Source: Verrucomicrobiia bacterium
GTDB lineage: Bacteria; Verrucomicrobiota; Verrucomicrobiia; Verrucomicrobiales; DEV007
Reading direction: 5' to 3'
Assembly (NCBI GenBank): GCA_030425385.1
Contig: JAUIAH010000018.1
Coordinates: forward strand, 1 to 64,000
Length of the DNA: 64,000 nt
Part shown: positions 24,857-51,622 of the stretch, piece after piece
Position numbering within the stretch: position 1 is the first letter of the stretch
How the letters are laid out: each line of letters starts with the position of its first letter
Position numbers and translations under genes: made by a program
The notes under the pieces: generated by a model
What the model saw: the letters and a program-made list of their open reading frames with translations, nothing else
Told to the model about the DNA's origin: nothing
Database searches by the model: none

Positions 24857-25576
24857 TCACGTGTGAATCGCTTGGCATGCGGCGTGAATGGCGGTGTCGA
24901 GGGCGGACAGGAGCTCGGCGTCGCTGGGAGCCGACGGAAGGGCTTGTGGGGTGGTCTTGGCTGCGGTTTCGAGGGTTCCCATGGCCTTGGCAAAGGCGGC
25001 GAATCCAAAGGTGCCGGAAGATCCTTTGAGCTGGTGCGCGAGTTGATGCACGCGACCACCGTCCCCTTGCGATCGGGCTTCTAGCAGTTGTGCGAGTTGT
25101 TCGCGCGCGAGCTGTTGGAAATCGTCGAAGATTTCCATCGATTCCGGGTCGGAGGGGTCCACGATGGATTCGAGCTGGTCGCGGTCGATGCCGTCAGAGG
25201 GTTCCGTGGCGGCCACTCCCGGTGAAGCAAGCGCGAGCGCTTCTTGCAGCGCCTTGATGCGGAGGGGCTTGGGAAGGTAGTCGGCCATCCCGGCATCGAG
25301 GCAAGCTTCCCGGTCCCCAATCACCGTGTTGGCCGTGAGCCCGATGATCCGTGGGGGGTGATCACCCGCCTCTTTGAGAATTTGTCGGGTCGCTTCCAAA
25401 CCATCCATCACCGGCATTTGCACATCCATAAGAATCGCTGCAAAGTGTTCCTTGCGAACGGCATGCACAGCTTCGAGCCCGTTCTCTACCGTGGCCACTT
25501 CGTGCCCGAGAGACTGGGTGGCCTTGGCTGCCACTCGGCGATTGGTTTCATTGTCTTCAACGATCAGGACCTTCAT
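24857..25576 (-). CDS. Stand-alone receiver plus histidine phosphotransfer (REC-HPt) protein
   Basis: A 239-residue phosphorelay intermediate. The receiver domain (about 1-118) has acidic Glu7/Asp8, phospho-acceptor Asp51 in LMDVQMPVMDG, a Thr in GLTANT, and Lys103 in LPKPLR. The HPt domain (about 145-235) has the phospho-histidine His181 in LAHQLKGSSGTFG. It has no output domain, so it should shuttle phosphate between other proteins. It is divergent from the H-NOX gene across a 57-base AT-rich gap, and its receiver closely resembles the second receiver of the hybrid kinase at 26170 (GLTANT/ALTADA, DYLPKPLRI/GYLSKPLRI). It very likely belongs to the same pathway, either as phosphate sink or as branch to an unseen response regulator. 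Confidence 0.9.
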   Translation of the reverse strand: MKVLIVEDNETNRRVAAKATQSLGHEVATVENGLEAVHAVRKEHFAAILMDVQMPVMDGLEATRQILKEAGDHPPRIIGLTANTVIGDREACLDAGMADYLPKPLRIKALQEALALASPGVAATEPSDGIDRDQLESIVDPSDPESMEIFDDFQQLAREQLAQLLEARSQGDGGRVHQLAHQLKGSSGTFGFAAFAKAMGTLETAAKTTPQALPSAPSDAELLSALDTAIHAACQAIHT

Positions 25577-25633: not shown

Positions 25634-26188
25634 ATGAAAGGAGTAATCTTCACGGAATTCTTCGAACTCGTCGAGCAGACCTGGGGCTTGGACATGGTCG
25701 ATGACCTCATTGAGAGTTGTGACCTTGCTTCCGGAGGCGCCTACACGGCAGTGGGAACCTACGATCACGGCGAGATCGTGTCTTTGGTTCAGGAACTGAG
25801 TCGTCGAGCCGAAATGACGATCCCTGATCTGTTGCGTACGTTCGGCGAGTATCTCTTCTCGCGCTTCGTCGTCCTGTATCCTCAGTTCTTCGAGGGCATT
25901 CCCTCAGCGCTCGACTTTCTTGAGCAGGTGGAGGACTACATCCATGTGGAAGTGCGGAAGCTCTACCCGGATGCGACCCTGCCTCGGTTTGAGATCACAC
26001 GGCCAAAGGAAGAACAGTTGGTGATGCGCTACCTGTCCGAGCGTCACTTGCAAGACGTGGCCCATGGGTTGATCCTCGGCTGTTGCAAGCACTTTGGAGA
26101 TCCGTGTGATGTGAGGATGGAAGCCCCGGATGCCGATGCTGCAGTGCGGTTTGTCATTGAGCGCCAACCATGTCTGGAGACAGCGTAG
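25634..26188 (+). CDS. H-NOX haem-based nitric-oxide sensor
   Basis: A 184-residue H-NOX (HNOB) protein, the full domain length. It starts MKGVIFTEFFELVEQTWG as the family does. The proximal haem ligand is His104 in DYIHVEVRKLYPDATLPRFE. The haem-propionate motif YxSxR is Y133-L-S135-E-R137. The residue that aligns with the distal Tyr140 of the oxygen-binding Thermoanaerobacter protein is Val142, so this one should bind NO (and CO) but not hold O2. Stand-alone H-NOX proteins usually inhibit or gate a partner kinase or cyclase. The gene overlaps the hybrid kinase gene by 19 bases, making that kinase the obvious partner. Cytoplasmic. Confidence 0.95.
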   Translation: MKGVIFTEFFELVEQTWGLDMVDDLIESCDLASGGAYTAVGTYDHGEIVSLVQELSRRAEMTIPDLLRTFGEYLFSRFVVLYPQFFEGIPSALDFLEQVEDYIHVEVRKLYPDATLPRFEITRPKEEQLVMRYLSERHLQDVAHGLILGCCKHFGDPCDVRMEAPDADAAVRFVIERQPCLETA

Positions 26189-28284
26189 AGCGGTGGCAGC
26201 GTCGCTACGAGCGGCAGAAAGCTGCCCGACTGGAAGCGGAATCTCTGCTAGAGCAGAAGAGCGCTGAACTTTATCGTTCTAACAAAGAGCTGAGAAAGCT
26301 CACGCAGGACTTGGAAACGCGCGTGCAGGAGCGCGCGCAGCAGTTGGCAGAAGAGGAATCCAAGTTTCGAACCCTCTTCGAGGAGTCGCTCGACGGGATC
26401 GTCATTCACGATTTGCAAGGGAAGGTGAGCGATCTGAATGATCGCATGTGCCGGATGTTAGGGATAGGGCGCGAGAAGGCTCTGCGGTGTCATGTGCGGG
26501 ATTTCCATCCGGCTTCTACCATGGATGTGACGGAACGAGCGCTCCGCCGCGTGATGGAAGATGGTCATGCGGTCTTCGAAACGGAAATGCAACGTGCGGA
26601 TGGCTCCATCTTTCCCGTGGAGATTGCCGCTGCCGTGGTGAAGGCCAAACGTGGTCATCAGTTTGTCCAAGGGGTGGTGCGTGATGCCACCAAGCGTCGC
26701 GAGTTTGAGGAAAGCATTCGCAAGAGTGAAGAAGCGATGCGCGAGGCGAAAGAGGCTGCGGAACGGGCGAATCAGGCCAAGTCGCTCTTCTTGGCGAACA
26801 TGAGTCATGAGATTCGGACGCCGATGAACGGCATCATCGGCGTGGCAGAGCTGTTAGCCACCTCGAACCTGACTCCCGAACAAGCTGACTTGAATGATAC
26901 CATTCTCATGAGTGGTGAAGCTTTGTTAGAAATCATCAATGACATCCTCGACCTTTCGAAGATTGAATCTGGCAAGATGGATCTTGTGGCGGAGCCGTTC
27001 TCCTTGCATGATTGTGTGGAACGCTCGATCAGCACCGTGCTCGCAGGAGCCTCGAAGAAACAGATTGAGCTGGCCTGCCTGATCAAACCCGATGTTCCCA
27101 GCCGCGTGGTAGGGGATCCCACGCGATTGCGCCAGATCTTAAGTAACTTGCTAGGAAATGCGGTCAAATTCACCCTGGAGGGAGAAGTCTATTTGCGGGT
27201 ATCCGTCGAGGAGGGGGTTCTCCAATTTGATGTGAAAGACACGGGCATTGGCATTGCCAAGGCGGATCTGGGGCGGCTCTTTAGCAACTTCACACAGCTG
27301 GATGCGTCCACCACTCGAAACTTTGGTGGTACAGGGTTAGGACTAGCGATTTGTCGGAAACTTGCTCGCTTGATGGGGGGAGATATATCCGTGACGAGTG
27401 AGGCCGGAGAGGGATCCACCTTTTCCGTGACCATTCCGCTCCAAGCGGCCGAGGATGGGATGGATGAGAAGTTGTCGACGGCTTCCATCAGCTTCCACGG
27501 ACTCCGCGCGGTCATCGTAGATGACAATGCGACTAATCGCAAAGTGATGGCGTTTCAGTGCCGTCATCTTGGCATGGAGGTCGAGGCTTTTGCCTCGGGA
27601 CAGGATGCACTTGCTTGGCTCGAAGCCGAGCCAAAGGTCGATGTGGCGATCCTCGATATGCAAATGCCAGACATGGACGGGCTGATGCTGGCCCGCAAGA
27701 TCCATGCCTTGCCAGCCTATGCGACCATTCCGCTCGTCTTGGCAACGTCATTGGGGAATGTCCCTGAGAGTGAATCCTCTCGCGAAGATTGGCCGTTCGC
27801 ATCCAAGATCTTCAAACCAATCCTGATGCATCATTTAGAGGCTGCTATTTCATCAGCCCGCTGCCAAACGGGACGCGTCTTCGAATCCTCGGAAGATGAG
27901 AATCATAAAGTCGCGGGAACGCTCAAGATTCTCATCGCCGAGGACAATCCCATCAATCTACGGGTGGCTCGGAACATTATTCGTAAGCTCGGGCATGAAA
28001 GTGACTACGCTCATAATGGGATCGAAGTGTTAGAGAAACTGAAAGATCCCGAGAATCATTACGATGTCATTCTCATGGATGTGCAAATGCCAGAAATGGA
28101 TGGCGTGGAGACGACCGCGCGGATCCTTGAGCAGTGGCCAGATCCAGAGAAGCGGCCTCGGATCATTGCCTTGACGGCAGATGCGTTGAAGGGAGATCGG
28201 GAACGATTTCTCGCCGCAGGGATGGATGGCTACCTGAGCAAACCCTTGCGAATCGCCGAGATCCAGAATGCCTTGAATGCCTGA
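26170..28284 (+). CDS. H-NOX-associated hybrid histidine kinase (PAS, HisKA, HATPase, REC, REC)
   Basis: A 704-residue soluble kinase without membrane segments. Order: coiled coil (about 5-62), PAS domain (about 65-178, ESLDGIVIHDLQGKVSDLND), second short coiled coil, HisKA with phospho-acceptor His213 in NMSHEIRTPMNG, HATPase_c (about 315-435, N box LLGNAVKFT, DTGIGI, GTGLGLAI), then a divergent first receiver (about 482-600, AILDMQMPDMDG) and a canonical second receiver (about 620-704, ILMDVQMPEMDG, ALTADA, SKPLR). It overlaps the H-NOX gene, so NO bound to H-NOX is expected to change its autophosphorylation. Phosphate would pass His to Asp, then to the HPt domain of the divergent REC-HPt protein. 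Confidence 0.93.
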   Translation: MSGDSVERWQRRYERQKAARLEAESLLEQKSAELYRSNKELRKLTQDLETRVQERAQQLAEEESKFRTLFEESLDGIVIHDLQGKVSDLNDRMCRMLGIGREKALRCHVRDFHPASTMDVTERALRRVMEDGHAVFETEMQRADGSIFPVEIAAAVVKAKRGHQFVQGVVRDATKRREFEESIRKSEEAMREAKEAAERANQAKSLFLANMSHEIRTPMNGIIGVAELLATSNLTPEQADLNDTILMSGEALLEIINDILDLSKIESGKMDLVAEPFSLHDCVERSISTVLAGASKKQIELACLIKPDVPSRVVGDPTRLRQILSNLLGNAVKFTLEGEVYLRVSVEEGVLQFDVKDTGIGIAKADLGRLFSNFTQLDASTTRNFGGTGLGLAICRKLARLMGGDISVTSEAGEGSTFSVTIPLQAAEDGMDEKLSTASISFHGLRAVIVDDNATNRKVMAFQCRHLGMEVEAFASGQDALAWLEAEPKVDVAILDMQMPDMDGLMLARKIHALPAYATIPLVLATSLGNVPESESSREDWPFASKIFKPILMHHLEAAISSARCQTGRVFESSEDENHKVAGTLKILIAEDNPINLRVARNIIRKLGHESDYAHNGIEVLEKLKDPENHYDVILMDVQMPEMDGVETTARILEQWPDPEKRPRIIALTADALKGDRERFLAAGMDGYLSKPLRIAEIQNALNA

Positions 28285-28366: not shown

Positions 28367-30757
28367 CTAGTAACAGCAGTCGTCGCCATCGCGGGCGACA
28401 TGGCCATCGGATCCTTCGTAGCCGATGGTGGGGTCAGGACTAGCCAAGTAGTAAGCGGAAGGGGATAGATTGAGAGGCTGCAGCGCAGGCTGGATCTGAA
28501 CACTGAGATCATCGAAGCTCGAATCGCTTTCTTTCCCTTCTTCAACGCCGTCGTTGTAGCGGGTGTGATCCTCGACCATGAAGACAGTCTGAGATTTGTC
28601 CGTGAAGGTGAAGAACTGATCGAGGCCCCCAGGATTAGCGCTATTGATCGTGAAGAGCGGTTGCCGTTTCGTCCGGTTGTCATTCCCTTTGGGCGTGTAT
28701 CGCCAGGGATTTCGGAGAAAGACATCCACGCGATTGTTAGGCACGATGAGAAAGCCCACACGCTTGCCGTCGAGTCCGTAGCTCGATGGAGTGAAATGGA
28801 CAACATTGCCAGGATTGTAGGCGCGATCGTCAAGGATGGAGATCGCGTTGGCTGCAGCCGTCCGCCGGAAGGCGAGGGAGCTCGGCGAGAGTTGGCTCAC
28901 CACATCATAGTCGAAGACGCAGAGGTCAAACTTCATGGAACTGCGGTCATCGAGAAAGCGGAACGCGTAGGGTTGATCGCCTTCAGGGAACTGATAGATT
29001 TCTGTCAGGGTTTCGAACGACGCATCGCCCAATTCCATCTTCTTCAGGCGGTGAGCCACGCCGCGGCTGCCGCGGTCGGAATAGATGCCCGCTTTTCCGG
29101 GAATCACGTCGTCGAACTGGGAGTCTCCCAGACCTCGAGGGATGATCGTGATCTGAAAGATGACATCGTTGAAATCTTGGTCACCTTGATAGGCGCGGTC
29201 TTCGAACCCGAGAACTAGGGGGCGCTCACCCTCGGCATCGTGGAAGAGGCGAGCCGCGATCTGTTCTAGTCCCTGGGGATTGTAGGCGGCATCTTGAAAG
29301 AGATAGGAATCACCGCCACGCGCGCCATCCACCTGAAGATAGAATCGCAGCTCCGTTCCTGCAGGCAGCACGCCCAGGCTGGCCTTGGATCCGACGGATA
29401 AGGGAGCGGCGGGCCCGGTGGCGAAGTCCGTCCAGATGACACGGAGGGTGTTAGGATCGCGTCCATCATACCAGCCCAACGTGTTCCTGGCATCGCCGCC
29501 GTCGTAGATCGCAGTGACGATGACTTCACTGTCCGTTGCCAAAGCAAATGTTTCGGGATCGAATCCGCGTTTGTAGTCTTCTAACAATGTTCCTTCATTG
29601 CGGCAGTAGAGTTCCTCCTGCACGAGTGACCACACGTGGCGCGCGCTCCGATAGTCTGCATCTGAAACGCCGTAGGTTTCGATCGTATCAATCGCGTTCT
29701 CGTTTACCGAGATAAAGAGATCTTCGAACGTGGCGAATTCCCCATCCGTGGCCGTGCAACGCAACGTGTAGTCACCGGGATTGGAGAACTTCACTTTGGT
29801 TTCCATTTCATGGGGAGAATAGATCTTGGAGAGCCCGGGGCCGGCTTCCTGCGTCCACTGGACCTGAAGCCCACCTCCTGTTCGCGGTAGGCCGTCATCA
29901 GTGATCGCTGGCTTGAGGGTGACTTCGCGGTAGTTGAGATTGCTGATGAGGTCGTCTCCAATCGCGATCGCGGGTGCTTCGTTGATCACTGCACGCGCGT
30001 CATGAACCGTGGGCTCTGGAGTGAGCACCATGGAGAGCGTCATGCGGAAGTTGGAGCCTGTCGTGTGGCGTTCGGCGAAGAACATGTCAAAGGGATAGGT
30101 TTCGCCTTCTGTCAGACCAAGGTCGTCAAGGGCAACTGAGCCGGAGATGGGACCGTGAACCCCGCCTAGATCGACGACCAGTTTCCCATCGATATAGACC
30201 CACACATCATCATCACCGGTGAAGTGAAAGACCTGGCCAGGCACATACGTGAACTCGTTGTGAATCTCCACGGTGAAGTGGAAATTCTGATCCCAGTAAG
30301 GCTCTAGTGTTGCCTGGGGATCGACGCTTCCCTTGGCCAAAGGAAAGAAGGCGTTGCTCGTGAAACTGTAAGTGTCGTCGGCGTTCTTGGTGAGCGTGAG
30401 CTTAGACCCAGCAGCGATGCCACCCAGGAGCGCTTCAGCTGGGACGGTCTTACTGAACCCTTCCGTATCGGTCCACCACTGATTGAAATCGCTCTCGTTG
30501 GTGAGATTGTGATAGCGATCTGCGGGAGCGGTGGGGCTCCAAAGGGGTTTGCCATCGGCCCCTAACGTTTGGCGAACGATTCCTTTCACATGACCAAAGC
30601 CACGGATCTGGAAGTTAGGGTGGGAGTCGTGGATGTCGCGGACGATGATCGGGATAGCGATCGAGTCCGGAAGATCGGAGGCTTGTGCGAGTGGGGTGAG
30701 CAGCGTGAGCATCGCGAAAGCCATGCCTGATAGGTCGTGTCGTCGTTGGGTTGTCAT
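28367..30757 (-). CDS. Secreted fibro-slime and DUF4114 domain protein
   Basis: A 796-residue exported protein. I chose ATG 30757, which begins MTTQRRHDLSGMAFAMLTLL, a plausible signal peptide ending AQA; a further 32 in-frame residues upstream look spurious. The fibro-slime (PA14-like) domain spans about 25-265, with PIIVRDIHDSHPNF, FHFTGDDDVWVYIDGKLVVD and YPFDMFFAERHTTGSNFRM. A cadherin/PKD-like stretch follows (about 290-390), then two DUF4114-type segments with GFEDRAYQGDQDFNDVIFQI and VEDHTRYNDGV...SDSSFDDLSVQI. Such proteins are surface or extracellular-matrix components that probably bind calcium and glycans. The gene faces away from the sigma-54 locus across about 400 bases. Confidence 0.82.
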   Translation of the reverse strand: MTTQRRHDLSGMAFAMLTLLTPLAQASDLPDSIAIPIIVRDIHDSHPNFQIRGFGHVKGIVRQTLGADGKPLWSPTAPADRYHNLTNESDFNQWWTDTEGFSKTVPAEALLGGIAAGSKLTLTKNADDTYSFTSNAFFPLAKGSVDPQATLEPYWDQNFHFTVEIHNEFTYVPGQVFHFTGDDDVWVYIDGKLVVDLGGVHGPISGSVALDDLGLTEGETYPFDMFFAERHTTGSNFRMTLSMVLTPEPTVHDARAVINEAPAIAIGDDLISNLNYREVTLKPAITDDGLPRTGGGLQVQWTQEAGPGLSKIYSPHEMETKVKFSNPGDYTLRCTATDGEFATFEDLFISVNENAIDTIETYGVSDADYRSARHVWSLVQEELYCRNEGTLLEDYKRGFDPETFALATDSEVIVTAIYDGGDARNTLGWYDGRDPNTLRVIWTDFATGPAAPLSVGSKASLGVLPAGTELRFYLQVDGARGGDSYLFQDAAYNPQGLEQIAARLFHDAEGERPLVLGFEDRAYQGDQDFNDVIFQITIIPRGLGDSQFDDVIPGKAGIYSDRGSRGVAHRLKKMELGDASFETLTEIYQFPEGDQPYAFRFLDDRSSMKFDLCVFDYDVVSQLSPSSLAFRRTAAANAISILDDRAYNPGNVVHFTPSSYGLDGKRVGFLIVPNNRVDVFLRNPWRYTPKGNDNRTKRQPLFTINSANPGGLDQFFTFTDKSQTVFMVEDHTRYNDGVEEGKESDSSFDDLSVQIQPALQPLNLSPSAYYLASPDPTIGYEGSDGHVARDGDDCCY

Positions 30758-30912
30758 CAATAGATTGGTTTGCTTGTTGGTGTGGTTCCCGATCGTGTCC
30801 CGGGAGGACTCTTTCCTTGGCAGGCGTCGTGCCAATGGGCTTCGTTGCGTCACAAACCATTCATCGTGAATATGTTGTGAAATATGCGCTCCGCCTGCAG
30901 ATGCATCCGAAG

Positions 30913-31009
30913 CCGGTAAAGATTTCAGGATTCACCCACTGACAGGGTAGCAATTGCTGTATCGGAACCGTTTACAGGTGAGGCCATCGAATCCGGTAAT
31001 CTTTACAGG
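30913..31009 (+). promoter_or_regulatory. Three dyad elements, candidate enhancer sites for the NtrC-type activator
   Basis: Three 17-base elements share the form CCGGTAA-N3-TTACAGG: 30913-30929 (CCGGTAAAGATTTCAGG), 30962-30978 (TCGGAACCGTTTACAGG, left half weak) and 30993-31009 (CCGGTAATCTTTACAGG, best dyad). Centres are 49 and 31 bases apart. They lie about 136-216 bases before the start expected from the sigma-54 promoter at 31110-31126, the classical enhancer distance. An NtrC-family activator is encoded at 34758-36125, at the end of the same locus. The rest of the 30758-31153 gap shows no gene. Confidence 0.55.
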
Positions 31010-31109
31010 ATAGGCCGCGGCGCCTGTCTGGAGTCTTCTGCGACTGCCCCGTCGCGTAATCTGCTGACTCCAAGGGGGTTAGGCATCTCGAAATGGCCGC
31101 TTAAGGCTC

Positions 31110-31126
31110 GTGGCACGACCGTTGCA
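31110..31126 (+). promoter_or_regulatory. Sigma-54 (RpoN) promoter of the glycosyltransferase operon
   Basis: TGGCACG-ACCG-TTGCA (31111-31126) is a full match to the RpoN consensus TGGCACG-N4-TTGCW, with GG at -24 and GC at -12. Transcription would start near 31137, leaving a leader of about 17 bases before the ATG at 31154. The nearby sigma-54 activator gene and upstream dyads support it. Confidence 0.85.
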
Positions 31127-31153: not shown

Positions 31154-32521
31154 ATGAAATCATCCACCAGCATCATCGCTTCCACGACCCCACGTCACAC
31201 GCTCTCCTTCATCGTTCCCCTCATGAATGAGCAAGAGACGCTTGAAGAACTCTATGACCGAATCGCCGAGCAAGCCCGCACGCACAGCACGTCGTGGGAG
31301 ATCATCTTCATTGATGACGGGAGTACGGACGGCAGTTGGGACGTCATTCAATCCCTCCGCGAACGTTATCCCCACACCGTCAAAGCCATTCGTTTCCGCC
31401 GAAACATTGGAAAAGCTGGCGCGCTTGCCTGCGGCTACGAAGAAGCCATGGGAGACATCGTCTTCACTCTGGACGCGGATCTTCAGGATGATCCTTCCGA
31501 AATTCCTAACTTTCTCGCTAAACTTGATGAGGGCTATGACATCGTCAGTGGTTGGAAGCGCAAGCGCCATGATCCGTGGCACAAGGTGCTGCCTAGCCGC
31601 GTCTTCAATAAGATGCTGAGCAAGCTGAACGGTGTTCCCCTTCATGATCACAACTGTGGGTTCAAATGCTATCGCCGAGAAGTGGTCAAGTCCTTGCCCA
31701 TGTATGGAGAGATGCATCGGATGGTGCCTTCGTTAGCGCGGATGAAAGGATTCCGGACGGGAGAGATCCCTGTGCAGCACCACGCGCGCCAGCATGGTGT
31801 GAGCAAATATGGGGTGAAACGATTTCTCCGGGGATTCATGGACATGTGGACCGTCTACTTTCTCAACCATTTCAAAGAGCGTCCCTTGCACCTGATGGGC
31901 GGCGCGGCAGTGCTCATGGTGACCTTGGCCATGACTGCCTGGGTGCTCGCGGCGTTCGGTATTACCTTGGGAGGCGTACTCGTTCCGGCCGCCCCCATCT
32001 TGTTTGCTGCCGCAATCTTGCTGGTGATGTTAGGGTTTATCGCGGAGCTCACTGTGCATCGCGAGTTCTCTTACAATCATCCATTGCCAGTCGCCGAGCG
32101 CTTCGTTGAGGGCTTGGTGACTGAAACCGAGGCTAACCAGGTGGTCTCCCTTTCCGCTGTGCCCAAAGTGTTGCTCGTGGATGATGACCCTTCAATCAGA
32201 CGTCTTCTCAAGCACCAGTTCACCCAGCATGGGTGGGAAGTGATGGAGGCGCATGACCTCGAATCGGCTCGCCAACGCATCGCCGATGGAGCGGACCTCG
32301 CCTTGCTCGATGTCTACATGCCTGGTGGAACCGGCCTCGAACTGCTTGAGGAGTTCGCCTCCCGTGCTCCCGCAACGAAAGTGATCATGCTTACGAGCGA
32401 GCAGGGGGTGCGTTCCGGGGTGGAAGCCATGAAATTGGGGGCCACGGATTATTTGACTAAGCCGGTCAATCCCCGCGAAGTCCTGAGCCATGCGCAGGCC
32501 GCCGTGAGTGTGGCAGCCTAA
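31154..32521 (+). CDS. Glycosyltransferase family 2 fused to a response-regulator receiver domain
   Basis: A 455-residue protein with an unusual fusion. Residues 15-245 form a GT2 domain of the polyprenyl-phosphate sugar transferase (DPM1/GtrB) type: SFIVPLMNEQETLEEL, IFIDDGSTDGS, the Mg-nucleotide motif Asp107-Ala-Asp109 in TLDADLQDDP, and HDHNCGFKCYRREV. Two membrane helices follow (about 248-270 and 277-297). Residues 336-455 are a complete receiver: VLLVDDDPSIRR with Asp343-345, phospho-acceptor Asp386 in LALLDVYMPGG, Thr414 in MLTSE, and Lys436 in YLTKPVNP. The sugar transfer should be to undecaprenyl phosphate on the cytoplasmic face. Phosphorylation of the receiver probably tunes activity or partner binding. 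It is the first gene behind the sigma-54 promoter. Confidence 0.93.
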   Translation: MKSSTSIIASTTPRHTLSFIVPLMNEQETLEELYDRIAEQARTHSTSWEIIFIDDGSTDGSWDVIQSLRERYPHTVKAIRFRRNIGKAGALACGYEEAMGDIVFTLDADLQDDPSEIPNFLAKLDEGYDIVSGWKRKRHDPWHKVLPSRVFNKMLSKLNGVPLHDHNCGFKCYRREVVKSLPMYGEMHRMVPSLARMKGFRTGEIPVQHHARQHGVSKYGVKRFLRGFMDMWTVYFLNHFKERPLHLMGGAAVLMVTLAMTAWVLAAFGITLGGVLVPAAPILFAAAILLVMLGFIAELTVHREFSYNHPLPVAERFVEGLVTETEANQVVSLSAVPKVLLVDDDPSIRRLLKHQFTQHGWEVMEAHDLESARQRIADGADLALLDVYMPGGTGLELLEEFASRAPATKVIMLTSEQGVRSGVEAMKLGATDYLTKPVNPREVLSHAQAAVSVAA

Positions 32522-32549: not shown

Positions 32550-33757
32550 ATGAAATCAGATCCCTCCCTGAAAGTAGGCATTGTTGGTTCTACTTACCCT
32601 CGAGAAGACACCGATACCGCGGTGCCTTGGCTGCGCGAGATTGTTGGCCGCACGGCAGATTCTGGGCATGATGTTAGAGTCATTGCTCCGAGTTTCAAGG
32701 CCTGGCCTCCCACGTCATCGATGGCATTCCCGTTCATCGCTTTCGCTACGGACCGGCGTTCTGGGAAACGTTGACACACGATTCTGGAGCGCCTAACAAA
32801 GTGCGATCACCACTCTTCAAGCTCCTCGCGATTCCCTATATTCTCGCAGGCATCGTTGCGGTGCTGTGGCTGACGTGGCGGCATCGCTTGGACGTGCTGC
32901 ACATTCATTGGCCCTTTCCTCATGGTCTGATGGCGCTCCTTCCGGCGCTATGCTTCGGGACACGCGTGGTGTCCACCTGCCATGGGGCTGAGCTGGCCAT
33001 GGGCAGAAATAGCGTCTTGGTGAGAGCCATTCTTGCATGCTGCCTGAAGTGGTCCGATGTCACCTGCACGAATAGCAGCCACACGGCGGATGAGGTGCGC
33101 AAGATTGTTCCGAAGATAGATCCCATTGTCGTGCCCTATGGAGCCACGGTTTCGGCTGGCAAGACCCTCGGTGCGCCGTTGCGCGATGATGCTGCCGTTC
33201 CCACGCTCCTCTTTTGTGGACGTCTCATCCAGCGCAAGGGCATCGATTACCTCTTGAAAGCCCTACCCATGGTCTTGGCCAAACGTCCCGTGCGATTGGT
33301 GATTACCGGGGAAGGGGATCGCAAGGCAGAATGGATGCAAATGGCCACGGATCTCGGGATTGAAGACCAGGTTGCCTTCCTGGGTTTTGTCAGTAGTGAG
33401 CGATTGAATGAACTCTATCAGACATGCGATCTCTACGTGCATCCCGCTATCTTCGATGACAACGGAGACACGGAAGGCCTGGGGGTCGTCTTGGTCGAAG
33501 CGTTGGCTCATCGCAAGCCCGTCATTGCCTCTCGTGTGGGAGGCATTGTCGATGTGATCAAGGATGGCATCACGGGCACTTTGGTGCCTGAGAAAGATTC
33601 GCGGGCTTTAGCGGAAGCTATTGATGATTTGTTAGGTGACCCCGACAGAGCACGGCAGTTGGGCGAAGCTGGGTTTGCCTATGCGCAAAGCCACTTCGAT
33701 TGGAATCGGATCACCGATCTTCAGTTAGGCGTTTACCAGGAAAGGGCAGCGGCATGA
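32550..33757 (+). pseudogene. Glycosyltransferase family 4 gene with one-base frameshift
   Basis: The frame from ATG 32550 encodes a normal GT4 N-terminus (LKVGIVGSTYPREDTDTAVPWLREI, VRVIAPSFK) and then runs into nonsense, stopping at 32774. The expected continuation (GLASHVIDGIPVHRFRYGP...LTHDSGAPNK) is in another frame and joins the open frame that begins at 32771 and ends at 33757. Adding one G to the GG at 32699-32700 restores a 402-residue GT-B enzyme, including LLFCGRLIQRKGIDYLL, the nucleotide-binding E-x7-E region (DNGDTEGLGVVLVEAL) and a C-terminal helix. The missing base could be a sequencing error or a real mutation; if real, only an N-terminally cut protein from 32771 could form. 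It overlaps the next gene by ATGA. Confidence 0.8.
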
Positions 33758-34698
33758 GTGTTGGAAAGTGGATCTTGCGAACGGCCTACCTCATGGTCGC
33801 GGTGGCCATGGCGGCCGTGCTGATCAAGCAGCGCGACACTATCGGCGAGGTCTTACGCTTGGTGGACCCCCTCATGGTACTAGCAGCGAGCGGAGTCTTG
33901 GTGTGCTATCGTGTGATCAATGCTAGCATTTGGGGGCTCGTGCTCAACGGACTGGGAGCTTCTGTTTCCTTCCTAGCGGCGACCCGGGTTTGGCTCATGA
34001 CAGAAGCCTTGCGCTGGTTGCCGGGTGGTATCTGGGGTTTCTGCAGCCGGGTGGGAGCGGCCAAGCGTCTGGGGCTCAGCAAACGTCTTGCCGGGGTGAG
34101 CCTGAGTGTGGAGCTGGCCATCACGATCATGGCCTGGGGACTGGCGATGGTGCTAGGAATCGGGTGCGCTGGTATCCTGCCAGCATTCCTCGATCCGTTT
34201 CCAAAGGCAATGCTTGCATTGAGCATGATTGCTAGTGCTGGCTTCTTGGCGATCCTTTGGCTGCTCCGACACTGGCTGTTGGAGCAGCCATGGATGCGGC
34301 GATTGGCTCCGGTGGGTGAAGGTTCTCTGCGATGGCGACCGCTCGCCACTGCGTTGGCGGCTTACGCTGGACTCTGCGCCATGAATGGGATCGCGTTCTA
34401 CCTCCTCATTCAGGCCTTTCCGCAGGGCGAGGCCCCCATCTCACTCGCCGCTGCGATCGGTATCAATGCCGCTGGGTGGCTCGCTGGCTTCTTCGCCATC
34501 GGGGCCCCTGGTGGATTGGGTGCCCGAGAAGCGGCTCTGGCGGCCATGCTGTCGCCCTTCTTGCGATTGGAATCCATTGTGTTGTTAGTGGCTGCGTGGC
34601 GGCTTCTCCAGATGCTGGTGGAAGCGGTCACGCTAGCCACGTTCGCAGCCACGCGACGCGAAAGAGCCTCGGCGTCTCCCGCGTGGGTGGTTTCTTGA
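33754..34698 (+). CDS. LPG synthase TM-like (UPF0104) membrane protein, candidate flippase
   Basis: A 314-residue polytopic membrane protein of the lysylphosphatidylglycerol synthase transmembrane-region family (UPF0104). ATG 33754 overlaps the previous stop as ATGA. About eight hydrophobic segments are visible, with the family blocks TEALRWLPGGIWGFCSRVGAAKRLGLS near residues 88-113 and FFAIGAPGGLGAREAALAAML near 248-268. Proteins of this family sit next to glycosyltransferase genes and are thought to move or modify lipid-linked products. Here it follows the GT2-REC and GT4 genes, so a role in exporting or flipping their glycolipid product is likely. Confidence 0.85.
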   Translation: MSVGKWILRTAYLMVAVAMAAVLIKQRDTIGEVLRLVDPLMVLAASGVLVCYRVINASIWGLVLNGLGASVSFLAATRVWLMTEALRWLPGGIWGFCSRVGAAKRLGLSKRLAGVSLSVELAITIMAWGLAMVLGIGCAGILPAFLDPFPKAMLALSMIASAGFLAILWLLRHWLLEQPWMRRLAPVGEGSLRWRPLATALAAYAGLCAMNGIAFYLLIQAFPQGEAPISLAAAIGINAAGWLAGFFAIGAPGGLGAREAALAAMLSPFLRLESIVLLVAAWRLLQMLVEAVTLATFAATRRERASASPAWVVS

Positions 34699-34757: not shown

Positions 34758-36125
34758 ATGTCTCGAAATCGTGAACGCTCCCGTATTCTTGTCGCCGATG
34801 ATGACGACACCGTGCGGCGTCTCCTTTGCCATCACCTGAGTAAAGGTGGCTTCGATCCCGTGCCGGCCGAGGATGGGGCCGAGGCGGTTGCCTTGGCAGA
34901 TGACCAAATCGCCGCGGCGTTGGTCGATCTTGAGATGCCGCACATGGATGGCAAGGCGTGCCTGCAACGCTTGCGCAAGGACTATCCTGAGATGGCCGTG
35001 GTGGTGCTTTCTGCCACGGGCGGGATCGACGATGCCGTCCAAGCGCTCAAACTCGGGGCTGCTGATTATCTGACGAAGCCGTTCGATCCCAGTGAGGTCT
35101 TGGCGGTGCTCAAGCAGGCTGTCAAAGTCACCAATCTTGGAAAGGAGAACAAGATTCTGAAACAGGTGGTGGGCGACTCGCGCCCACGCAGCCCTTTCCT
35201 CGCCAGTTCACCTGAAATGCGTGAACTGTTAGGAAATGCCGAGACGGTGGCGGAACTTCCCTCCACGGTGATGATCACCGGCGAAAGTGGTGTCGGCAAG
35301 AGTCTCCTGGCGCGGCACATCCACTACAGTAGCCCGCGAGCAGACAAGCCGTTTGTGTGTGTCAGTTGTCCTGCATTGCCTAGGGAACTGTTAGAATCCG
35401 AACTGTTCGGTCACGAAAAGGGTTCGTTTACCGGAGCGCATCAGCAGCGATTGGGTAAATTTGAACTGGCTCAGGGAGGCACCCTCTTTCTCGATGAGAT
35501 CGGAGATTTGCCCCTGGATCTGCAACCAAAGTTGCTCAACGTCTTGCAAGACCGCGAGATCTTTCGCATTGGCGGGACGAAGCCAGTGAGTATCGATGTG
35601 AGAGTGATTGCGGCGACTAATGTCAATCTTCGCGAGAGGGTTGAGGCTGGCGAGTTTCGGGAAGATCTCTTCTATCGCCTCAATGTTATTCCGCTAGAGC
35701 TTCCACCCTTGCGGCGGCGGCCAGAAGACATTGAGACCATCGCCCAACATGTCCTTGAGCGCTTGTCCAAAGATCATGGGCTGGCCAAACCCATTCGATT
35801 AACCAAGGAGGCCATGAAGGTGATCCAGCAGGCAGAGTGGCCCGGCAATGTGCGTCAGCTAGAGAATGCCCTCGAGCGAGCAGCCGCTTTCTGTAAAGAA
35901 AGCGTCATTCAGGCGGATGCGCTTCAGCACGATACCCAGCAGAATGGGACCACCTCAGATGGAGAACCCGATCTCTCTGGATACAAATTGCAAGAACTTG
36001 AGAGACTGGCACTCACACAGACGCTTTCCGCCTGTCAGAACAACAAAGCGGAAACCGCGAGGCGACTCGGCATCACCGAGAAATCCGTCTACAATAAGCT
36101 CAAACGCATGGCTTTGGAATCGTAG
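34758..36125 (+). CDS. NtrC-family sigma-54-dependent response regulator
   Basis: A 455-residue activator with three domains. The receiver (about 9-120) has Asp14-Asp16, phospho-acceptor Asp57 in ALVDLEMPHMDG and Lys107 in YLTKPFDP. The AAA+ sigma-54-interaction domain (about 148-385) has Walker A GESGVGKS (175-182), the sigma-54 contact loop as GSFTGA (222-227), where the family norm is GAFTGA, and Walker B GTLFLDEIGD. A Fis-type helix-turn-helix is at about 405-453 (NNKAETARRLGITEKSVYNKL). ATG 34758 is preferred to GTG 34740. It lies 59 bases after the membrane-protein gene, and an imperfect hairpin occupies 34712-34731. It most likely activates the promoter at 31110 through the dyads upstream. 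No cognate kinase is adjacent. Confidence 0.94.
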   Translation: MSRNRERSRILVADDDDTVRRLLCHHLSKGGFDPVPAEDGAEAVALADDQIAAALVDLEMPHMDGKACLQRLRKDYPEMAVVVLSATGGIDDAVQALKLGAADYLTKPFDPSEVLAVLKQAVKVTNLGKENKILKQVVGDSRPRSPFLASSPEMRELLGNAETVAELPSTVMITGESGVGKSLLARHIHYSSPRADKPFVCVSCPALPRELLESELFGHEKGSFTGAHQQRLGKFELAQGGTLFLDEIGDLPLDLQPKLLNVLQDREIFRIGGTKPVSIDVRVIAATNVNLRERVEAGEFREDLFYRLNVIPLELPPLRRRPEDIETIAQHVLERLSKDHGLAKPIRLTKEAMKVIQQAEWPGNVRQLENALERAAAFCKESVIQADALQHDTQQNGTTSDGEPDLSGYKLQELERLALTQTLSACQNNKAETARRLGITEKSVYNKLKRMALES

Positions 36126-50302: not shown

Positions 50303-51622
50303 ATGGCAGCAGTAGACCCTCCTCAAGACTGGAAAGGCATTCTCAAGCAACTCGGTCCTGGGCTCATCATTTCCGCCAACATCGTAGGGTCGGGGGAACT
50401 GATCGTTACGACTAAGCTTGGGGCGGATGTGGGCTTCATGCTCCTGTGGTTCATCATCCTTGGATGCATGGTGAAGGTCTTCCTGCAGGTGGAACTTGGG
50501 CGCTACACCATCTCCAAAGGAAAGACGACCTTGGAAGCGTTGGATGCCGTTCCCGGTCCTCGATTCCGGGTATCGTGGCTGGTGTGGTGCTGGCTCATCA
50601 TGTTTGTCGCCACCTTCTTCCAACTCGCAGGGATGGTGGGAGGCATCGCCGATGTCTTCACCTTAGGCGGCATGACCTTACAAGATCGCGTCTTGGCAGC
50701 GCTTGTCACCGGGTCCTGTGCCGTTCTTCTCTTCGTTGGGCGTTACCGCTTCATCGAACGCTTCTCCACGGTCATCGTCGCGGGCTTCACGTTGTTCACC
50801 ATCTTTGCCGTCTTCTCTCTCTATTGGACGGACTTTGGTATCACGGGCTCGCAGATTGCCAGTGGGCTATCCTTTCAACTTCCTGACAATCTTACCGTGG
50901 CGCTGGCTGCCTTTGGTGTGATTGGCGTGGGAGCGTCCGAACTGATCTATTATCCCTATTGGTGTTTGGAGAAAGGCTATGCAGCCAATGTGGGGGAGAA
51001 TGATGGCTCCACCGCGTGGCAGGAACGTGCCCAGGGATGGATCCGTGTCCTTAAATGGGATGCGTGGGCATCCATGATCATCTACACAGGGGCCACCGTG
51101 GCTTTCTATTTGCTCGGGGCGGCCACGCTTCATGGCCGTGGGGAGGTGAATGATAGCAACCTCATTGAACGTCTTTCGAGCCTTTATACCACCTCGTTTG
51201 GGAATACCGGTTTATGGATCTTTCTCTTTGGAGCATTTGCCGTTCTCTATTCGACCATCTTCATCTCTACAGCGTCTAATAGCCGTCTCTCGGTCGATTT
51301 CCTGAACATGTTTGGCGTGTTGCGATCGGATGATAAGAGTAAACGCACGCGCCATGTGGCCATTGCGTGTGTGGCTCTGCCAGTGCTCTATTTCCTCTTT
51401 TATATCACCGTGGGGAAGCCGCTCGCTCTCGTTTTCGTGGGTGCCATCGCTCAAGCGCTCATGCTTCCATTCCTCTGTGTCGCGGCCCTCTATTTCCTCT
51501 ATAAACAGACCGATGCGGCCCTGCGTCCGGGAAACGTCTGGGTGGTCTTTCTGTGGATTTCTGCCGCCATGATGACCACGGTGGGCGTCTATCAACTCAT
51601 CGCCAAATTGCAGGGGAGTTGA
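50303..51622 (+). CDS. Nramp-family-like transporter lacking the usual metal motifs
   Basis: A 439-residue protein with 11 or so membrane helices, placed in the Nramp family by GPGLIISANIVGSGE in the first helix and GVGASELIYYPYW in the sixth. In classic Nramp proteins the first motif is DPGN and the sixth-helix motif is MPH; neither is present here. It therefore belongs to a divergent branch whose substrate may be Mg2+ or not a metal at all. ATG 50303 (MAAVDPPQDWKGILKQLGPGL) is preferred; ATG 50276 would add nine residues and an earlier ATG only spurious sequence. Divergent from metX, convergent with the GFA gene three bases away. Confidence 0.85.
   Translation: MAAVDPPQDWKGILKQLGPGLIISANIVGSGELIVTTKLGADVGFMLLWFIILGCMVKVFLQVELGRYTISKGKTTLEALDAVPGPRFRVSWLVWCWLIMFVATFFQLAGMVGGIADVFTLGGMTLQDRVLAALVTGSCAVLLFVGRYRFIERFSTVIVAGFTLFTIFAVFSLYWTDFGITGSQIASGLSFQLPDNLTVALAAFGVIGVGASELIYYPYWCLEKGYAANVGENDGSTAWQERAQGWIRVLKWDAWASMIIYTGATVAFYLLGAATLHGRGEVNDSNLIERLSSLYTTSFGNTGLWIFLFGAFAVLYSTIFISTASNSRLSVDFLNMFGVLRSDDKSKRTRHVAIACVALPVLYFLFYITVGKPLALVFVGAIAQALMLPFLCVAALYFLYKQTDAALRPGNVWVVFLWISAAMMTTVGVYQLIAKLQGS

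Follow-up and report, generated by a model that had tools for sequence, protein, structure and literature searches.

Conserved dyads between divergent sigma-54 promoters suggest a shared enhancer for polysaccharide and matrix-protein genes beside an H-NOX relay in a Verrucomicrobiia bacterium

A short intergenic region in the genome of a Verrucomicrobiia bacterium appears to hold a shared enhancer from which one phosphorylated activator would drive two divergent sigma-54 operons, with input from an H-NOX relay. Judging from sequence comparison, we put the probability of this reading at ca. 0.83. The window, i.e., the whole stretch of DNA analysed, is 64,000 nucleotides long, and its first-pass annotation had proposed an enhancer-driven operon for surface glycan genes. 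That layout is the best-supported one and is conserved across genera, but it has to be extended, since there are two divergent promoters, the second of which serves a fibro-slime gene. The control scheme itself is a known one; the locus is a new, well-supported example of it, and the layout recurs in other genera. Comparison of genomes shows the sites and both promoters, how they are spaced, and that they are linked to the activator family and to exopolysaccharide genes.

The putative regulatory elements, in the order of their coordinates, are the following.

30819..30834, minus strand: sigma-54 promoter, leftward, TGGCACGACGCCTGCC
30913..30929, plus strand: dyad 1, CCGGTAAAGATTTCAGG, rank 2 in the window with a matrix from other genera
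30962..30978, plus strand: dyad 2, TCGGAACCGTTTACAGG, weak, 31 bp from dyad 3
30993..31009, plus strand: dyad 3, CCGGTAATCTTTACAGG, rank 1 in the window with the same matrix
31111..31126, plus strand: sigma-54 promoter, rightward, TGGCACGACCGTTGCA, perfect consensus

At both promoters, GG at −24 and GC at −12 are separated by 10 bp, as is characteristic of sigma-54 (RpoN) promoters, and one rpoN gene is present in the genome (one Sigma54_AID match). The full RpoN site that the first-pass annotation had read at 31111-31126 is indeed there. The rightward promoter alone is not exceptional: three perfect −24/−12 matches occur in the 8.0 Mb of the genome, and matches with at most one mismatch number 92, versus 84 for the reversed pattern. 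The second promoter is divergent and lies on the minus strand, which places the dyads between two sigma-54 promoters, in a region of 276 bp. Relative to the rightward start expected at ~31137, the dyad centres fall at approximately −216, −167, and −136, in agreement with the earlier estimate of 136-216 bases.

Dyad 3 (30993) is the sole perfect match to CCNGTAANNNTTACNGG in the 8.0 Mb of the genome, and allowing one mismatch adds three places: 30913 (dyad 1), a site on contig C19, and a site at C39:210104, which was rejected as a regulatory site because it falls inside 23S rRNA. A matrix trained on seven dyad sites, all of them from three other genomes (G010, G014, and G018) with the window left out, placed 30993 first and 30913 second in the window; scores of 18 or higher are expected ~0.05 times per Mb under a Markov model of the window. 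Dyads 30993 and 30913 are not chance matches and are exceptional in the genome. Dyad 2 matches 9 of 12 positions, which is not significant by sequence alone (14 matches as good were observed in the window versus 11.7 expected). Thus, of the three dyads originally called, the outer two held up, while 30962 is a candidate by virtue of its position, the pair spacing being 31 bp here and 30-33 bp in relatives. Dyad 3, located 102 bp from the rightward −24 box, is probably the enhancer (UAS) and the main site of the rightward promoter. Dyad 1 lies 79 bp from the −24 box of the leftward promoter and is probably its main site.

The genome-wide search for the same dyads near sigma-54 promoters, which had been suggested as a check, was positive for the window; no dyad is present within ~1 kb of the two remaining perfect sigma-54 matches (C6 and C39:174288), and a pair on C19 is imperfect. 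The latter (L257:7602-7740, corresponding to C19:115602-115740 of G000, the same genome as the window) comprises a strong dyad ~107 bp upstream of TGGTACGGTTCATGCC. No gene lies downstream of this dyad and its imperfect −24/−12 on that strand, and the pair could possibly belong to a small RNA or be due to chance. At 50882 there is a further dyad-like site, which lacks a good sigma-54 site at the usual position beside it.

The genes of the locus are arranged in the order receiver-Hpt (minus strand), H-NOX, hybrid kinase, fibro-slime (minus strand), enhancer region, GT2-REC, GT4, LPG_TM, and activator.

24857..25576, minus strand: receiver-Hpt protein, presumed phosphorelay shuttle (PF00072, PF01627)
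25634..26188, plus strand: H-NOX, putative haem NO sensor (PF07700, E 7e-39)
26170..28284, plus strand: hybrid histidine kinase, PAS-HisKA-HATPase-REC-REC (domain search)
28367..30757, minus strand: secreted fibro-slime/PA14 + DUF4114 protein, putative target of the leftward promoter (TIGR02148, PF07691, PF13448)
31154..32521, plus strand: GT2-REC, polyprenyl-phosphate-type GT2 with a C-terminal receiver, first gene rightward (PF00535, PF00072)
32550..33757, plus strand: GT4 glycosyltransferase (domain search; frame shift near 32697)
33754..34698, plus strand: LPG_synthase_TM (UPF0104-type) membrane protein (PF03706)
34758..36125, plus strand: presumed activator, group I enhancer-binding response regulator REC-AAA+-HTH_8 (PF00072, PF00158, PF02954)

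The H-NOX protein has an HNOB domain with the haem-ligating His104 and a YxSxR motif in the form Y133-L-S-E-R137; the proximal histidine and the YxS motif are conserved. The fibro-slime protein scores 126.6 bits against TIGR02148 (cut-off 45). Relative to its G239 and G013 homologues, the frame shift interrupts the GT4 gene; it is either genuine or an error of the assembly. A weak terminator-like hairpin lies upstream of the activator gene, whose start at 34758, as annotated earlier, is confirmed as an ATG in the list of open reading frames. Its REC, AAA+, and Fis-type HTH domains, the Walker A motif GESGVGKS, and the loop GSFTGA (GAFTGA in the three aligned orthologues) place the activator among the group I enhancer-binding response regulators. 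The earlier label "NtrC-type" is therefore appropriate for the class, but not for NtrC itself: the protein scores 410.1 bits against the NCBIfam ntrC model TIGR01818 (cut-off 558.6). An assignment to PrsR was likewise rejected (TIGR02915, 374.3 bits, cut-off 502.6).

In the scheme that we infer, the phosphorylated 34758 activator would bind the 17-bp dyads (consensus CCGGTAA-N3-TTACCGG), oligomerise, loop to sigma-54 RNA polymerase, and open both promoters, which would depend on RpoN. The rightward output would consist of GT2-REC, GT4, the LPG_TM protein, and the activator itself, the extent of the operon being presumed, while the leftward output would be the secreted, matrix-like fibro-slime protein. 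Because the activator gene ends the operon that it would control, in the window as well as in G014 and G018, positive feedback (autoregulation) is likely, although the weak hairpin upstream of the gene in the window speaks against it. The input would most likely come from the adjacent relay, from H-NOX through the hybrid kinase to the receiver-Hpt protein; H-NOX and its kinase are a plausible NO input, likely in the form of an NO phosphorelay. With the H-NOX relay as input, NO or the redox state would set the output of both matrix polysaccharide and matrix protein, the direction of the NO effect being presumed as well.

Binding of the dyads by the 34758 activator is presumed from co-occurrence and linkage. 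Orthologues of the activator (54-57% identity) are found in five other genera; within the family, they are confined to 6 of 75 genomes. Genomes were searched with a strict composite pattern (a dyad, a spacer, and −24/−12), the reversed pattern serving as control. In the 387 genomes of the order, the strict pattern gave nine matches, six of which had guided its design, and the reversed control gave none. Within the family, the pattern matches once in G000, three times in G014, and twice in G018, i.e., in three of the six genomes with an activator orthologue and in none of the 69 without (~3e-4, hypergeometric, for a pattern that these six matches had shaped). Since the family matches informed the pattern, the independent part of the result is the absence of matches elsewhere together with the empty control. 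The three further matches (G239, G140, and G178) all come from one other family of the order.

In principle, the dyads could be enhancers of the same sigma-54 promoters but be bound by another of the bacterium's enhancer-binding proteins, given that the genome has eight strong Sigma54_activat matches (the 34758 protein included) and that G005 has an activator orthologue but no recognisable dyads in a matrix scan. We consider this unlikely: besides the restriction, within the family, of dyad-promoter pairs to genomes with the orthologue, the regulated operons of the window, G010, G014, and G018 contain or adjoin a gene of the 34758 type, and the HTH is nearly identical among the window, G014, and G018 proteins. 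In G013, G014, and G018, which stand for three other genera, the activator adjoins genes for receiver-Hpt, H-NOX, and hybrid kinase. A scan of a genome collection with the activator gave no close relative, all of the proteins found being 37-46% identical and spread over many phyla.

The individual loci follow the same plan as the window to different degrees. In G010, two dyads 32 bp apart and a −24/−12 site occupy the intergenic region upstream of GT2-REC. G014 has three dyad-promoter pairs in one exopolysaccharide cluster (GT2, GT2/Wza-type export protein, flippase, GT4 enzymes, sugar transferase, and WecG-STAS), the last operon of which ends with the activator, and G018 has homologous operons with the same dyad-promoter pairs, again ending with the activator. 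The WecG/TagA-type glycosyltransferases with a fused STAS domain belong to orthologous exopolysaccharide operons (L125:7505-8926 and L126:10379-11761). In G013, the promoter upstream of GT2-REC is kept, and degenerate dyads, 30 bp apart, lie at about the same place. In the other family, the composite site of G239 lies directly upstream of a GT2-GT4-LPG_TM operon, with two dyads 33 bp apart; identities to the window genes are 61% for GT2 (which is without the receiver), 60% for GT4, and 39% for LPG_TM. In G178, the composite site neighbours a hybrid kinase and an activator homologue (46% identity). This last locus (L324:8028-8190) has, next to the activator homologue, a promoter with two or more dyad-like repeats ~21 bp apart, and there is no obvious downstream gene.

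A loose pair pattern applied to G000, G010, G014, and G018 yielded 27 dyad/−24 pairs among the matches listed. A correct −12 was present in eight of them, all at activator, exopolysaccharide, or fibro-slime loci, and absent from the remaining 19. When a loose composite pattern was used without the −12 box, no signal above the control was seen in 75 genomes. The dyad-to-promoter gaps are 77-79, 87-91, 102, and 110-113 bp. Their phasing at 10.5 bp (R 0.65; Monte Carlo p 0.008, Rayleigh p ~0.01; the sites are not all independent) is suggestive of a tendency toward one face of the helix.

The leftward −12 box is TGCC rather than TTGCW, and one-mismatch sigma-54 matches are common, so the enhancer might drive the rightward promoter only, with the −24/−12 before the fibro-slime gene being a coincidence. 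Such a coincidence is improbable, in our view. TGCC is the usual −12 box at related promoters (six of the eight others listed), and the 79 bp between dyad 1 and the leftward −24 box agree with the 77-79 bp found at three promoters in two other genera. Moreover, a composite site precedes a fibro-slime relative in another family: in G140 it is located, with two dyads 32 bp apart, upstream of a gene for a protein of 1624 aa, one part of which shares 40% identity with the window fibro-slime protein over 452 residues. The expected leftward start, at ~30808, lies ~50 nt upstream of the fibro-slime ATG (30757).

Dyad 1 forms a long inverted repeat with dyad 3 (86% over 21 nt), as might be expected of repressor operators, an RNA hairpin, or a mobile repeat with no sigma-54 role. 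Any of these is very improbable: the dyads lie upstream of both expected starts, which would leave them outside the transcripts, they do not form a genomic repeat family, and they keep their phase and distance to −24/−12 across genera. The hairpin or attenuator reading was rejected on the unremarkable RNA fold of the region (z −1.8).

The shared-enhancer reading can be compared with known systems. Enteric NtrC enhancers at glnA are 17-bp dyads of 7-3-7 geometry, occurring in pairs ~32 bp apart and 100-150 bp upstream of a sigma-54 promoter. The dyads described here have the same 7-3-7 geometry and pair spacing; their sequence and presumed input are different, and the activator is outside the ntrC NCBIfam cut-off. 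In the Vibrio fischeri pathway, HnoX is an inhibitor of HahK, and SypF relays the signal to SypG (PMC12369376, PMC10162802). Like that pathway, the locus combines a putative NO sensor and a hybrid kinase with a presumed Hpt phosphorelay and a group I sigma-54 activator (PMC12369376, PMC10162802). As in syp, sigma-54 promoters with upstream sites would drive a polysaccharide locus that contains the activator gene. Unlike in syp, the putative enhancers would act on a divergent matrix-protein gene as well, a separate receiver-Hpt protein carries the Hpt, and a glycosyltransferase-receiver fusion is present. The window dyads, of the form CCGGTAA-N3-TTACAGG, do not match the reported SypG site TTCTCANNNTGMDWN (PMC10162802), nor does the consensus given above. 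The likeness to SypG is one of layout and presumed function.

The PEP-CTERM sigma-54 regulon, with a 17-nt motif reported from Proteobacteria only (Haft 2006, PMC1569441), offers a second parallel. With PrsK/PrsR the locus shares an NtrC-like response regulator near exopolysaccharide genes and a 17-nt motif, sometimes repeated, upstream of −24/−12; the PrsR motif ends in TTTACA, which also occurs within dyads 2 and 3 (PMC1569441). The spacer averages 63 nt there (PMC1569441), in contrast to 77-113 bp here, and the kinase here is linked to H-NOX. In a literature search, no paper turned up that dealt with sigma-54 enhancer-binding proteins in Verrucomicrobia.

Given the receiver domain on the first glycosyltransferase of the rightward operon, this enzyme might be a direct target of the relay as well. 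An NO relay with two outputs on one polysaccharide, i.e., transcription through the activator and GT2 activity through receiver phosphorylation, is a tentative possibility that we would not favour. GT2-REC homologues in several genera retain the receiver in an alignment, but the G239 orthologue does not have it, which makes it an optional addition. The own-genome GT2-REC paralogue, on C48 (58% identity), has neither a dyad nor a good sigma-54 site. In the literature, only a census of archaeal two-component systems (PMC5847659) matched a search for receiver-glycosyltransferase fusions.

The proposed scheme thus provides a concrete candidate regulon for matrix production in this group of genomes, with a motif, a spacing, an activator, and target operons. 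As in Vibrio fischeri, an H-NOX sensor would be linked to exopolysaccharide via sigma-54. The fusion of the glycosyltransferase to a receiver suggests that the enzyme itself is under control. An enhancer common to polysaccharide and matrix-protein genes would make their co-expression directly testable.
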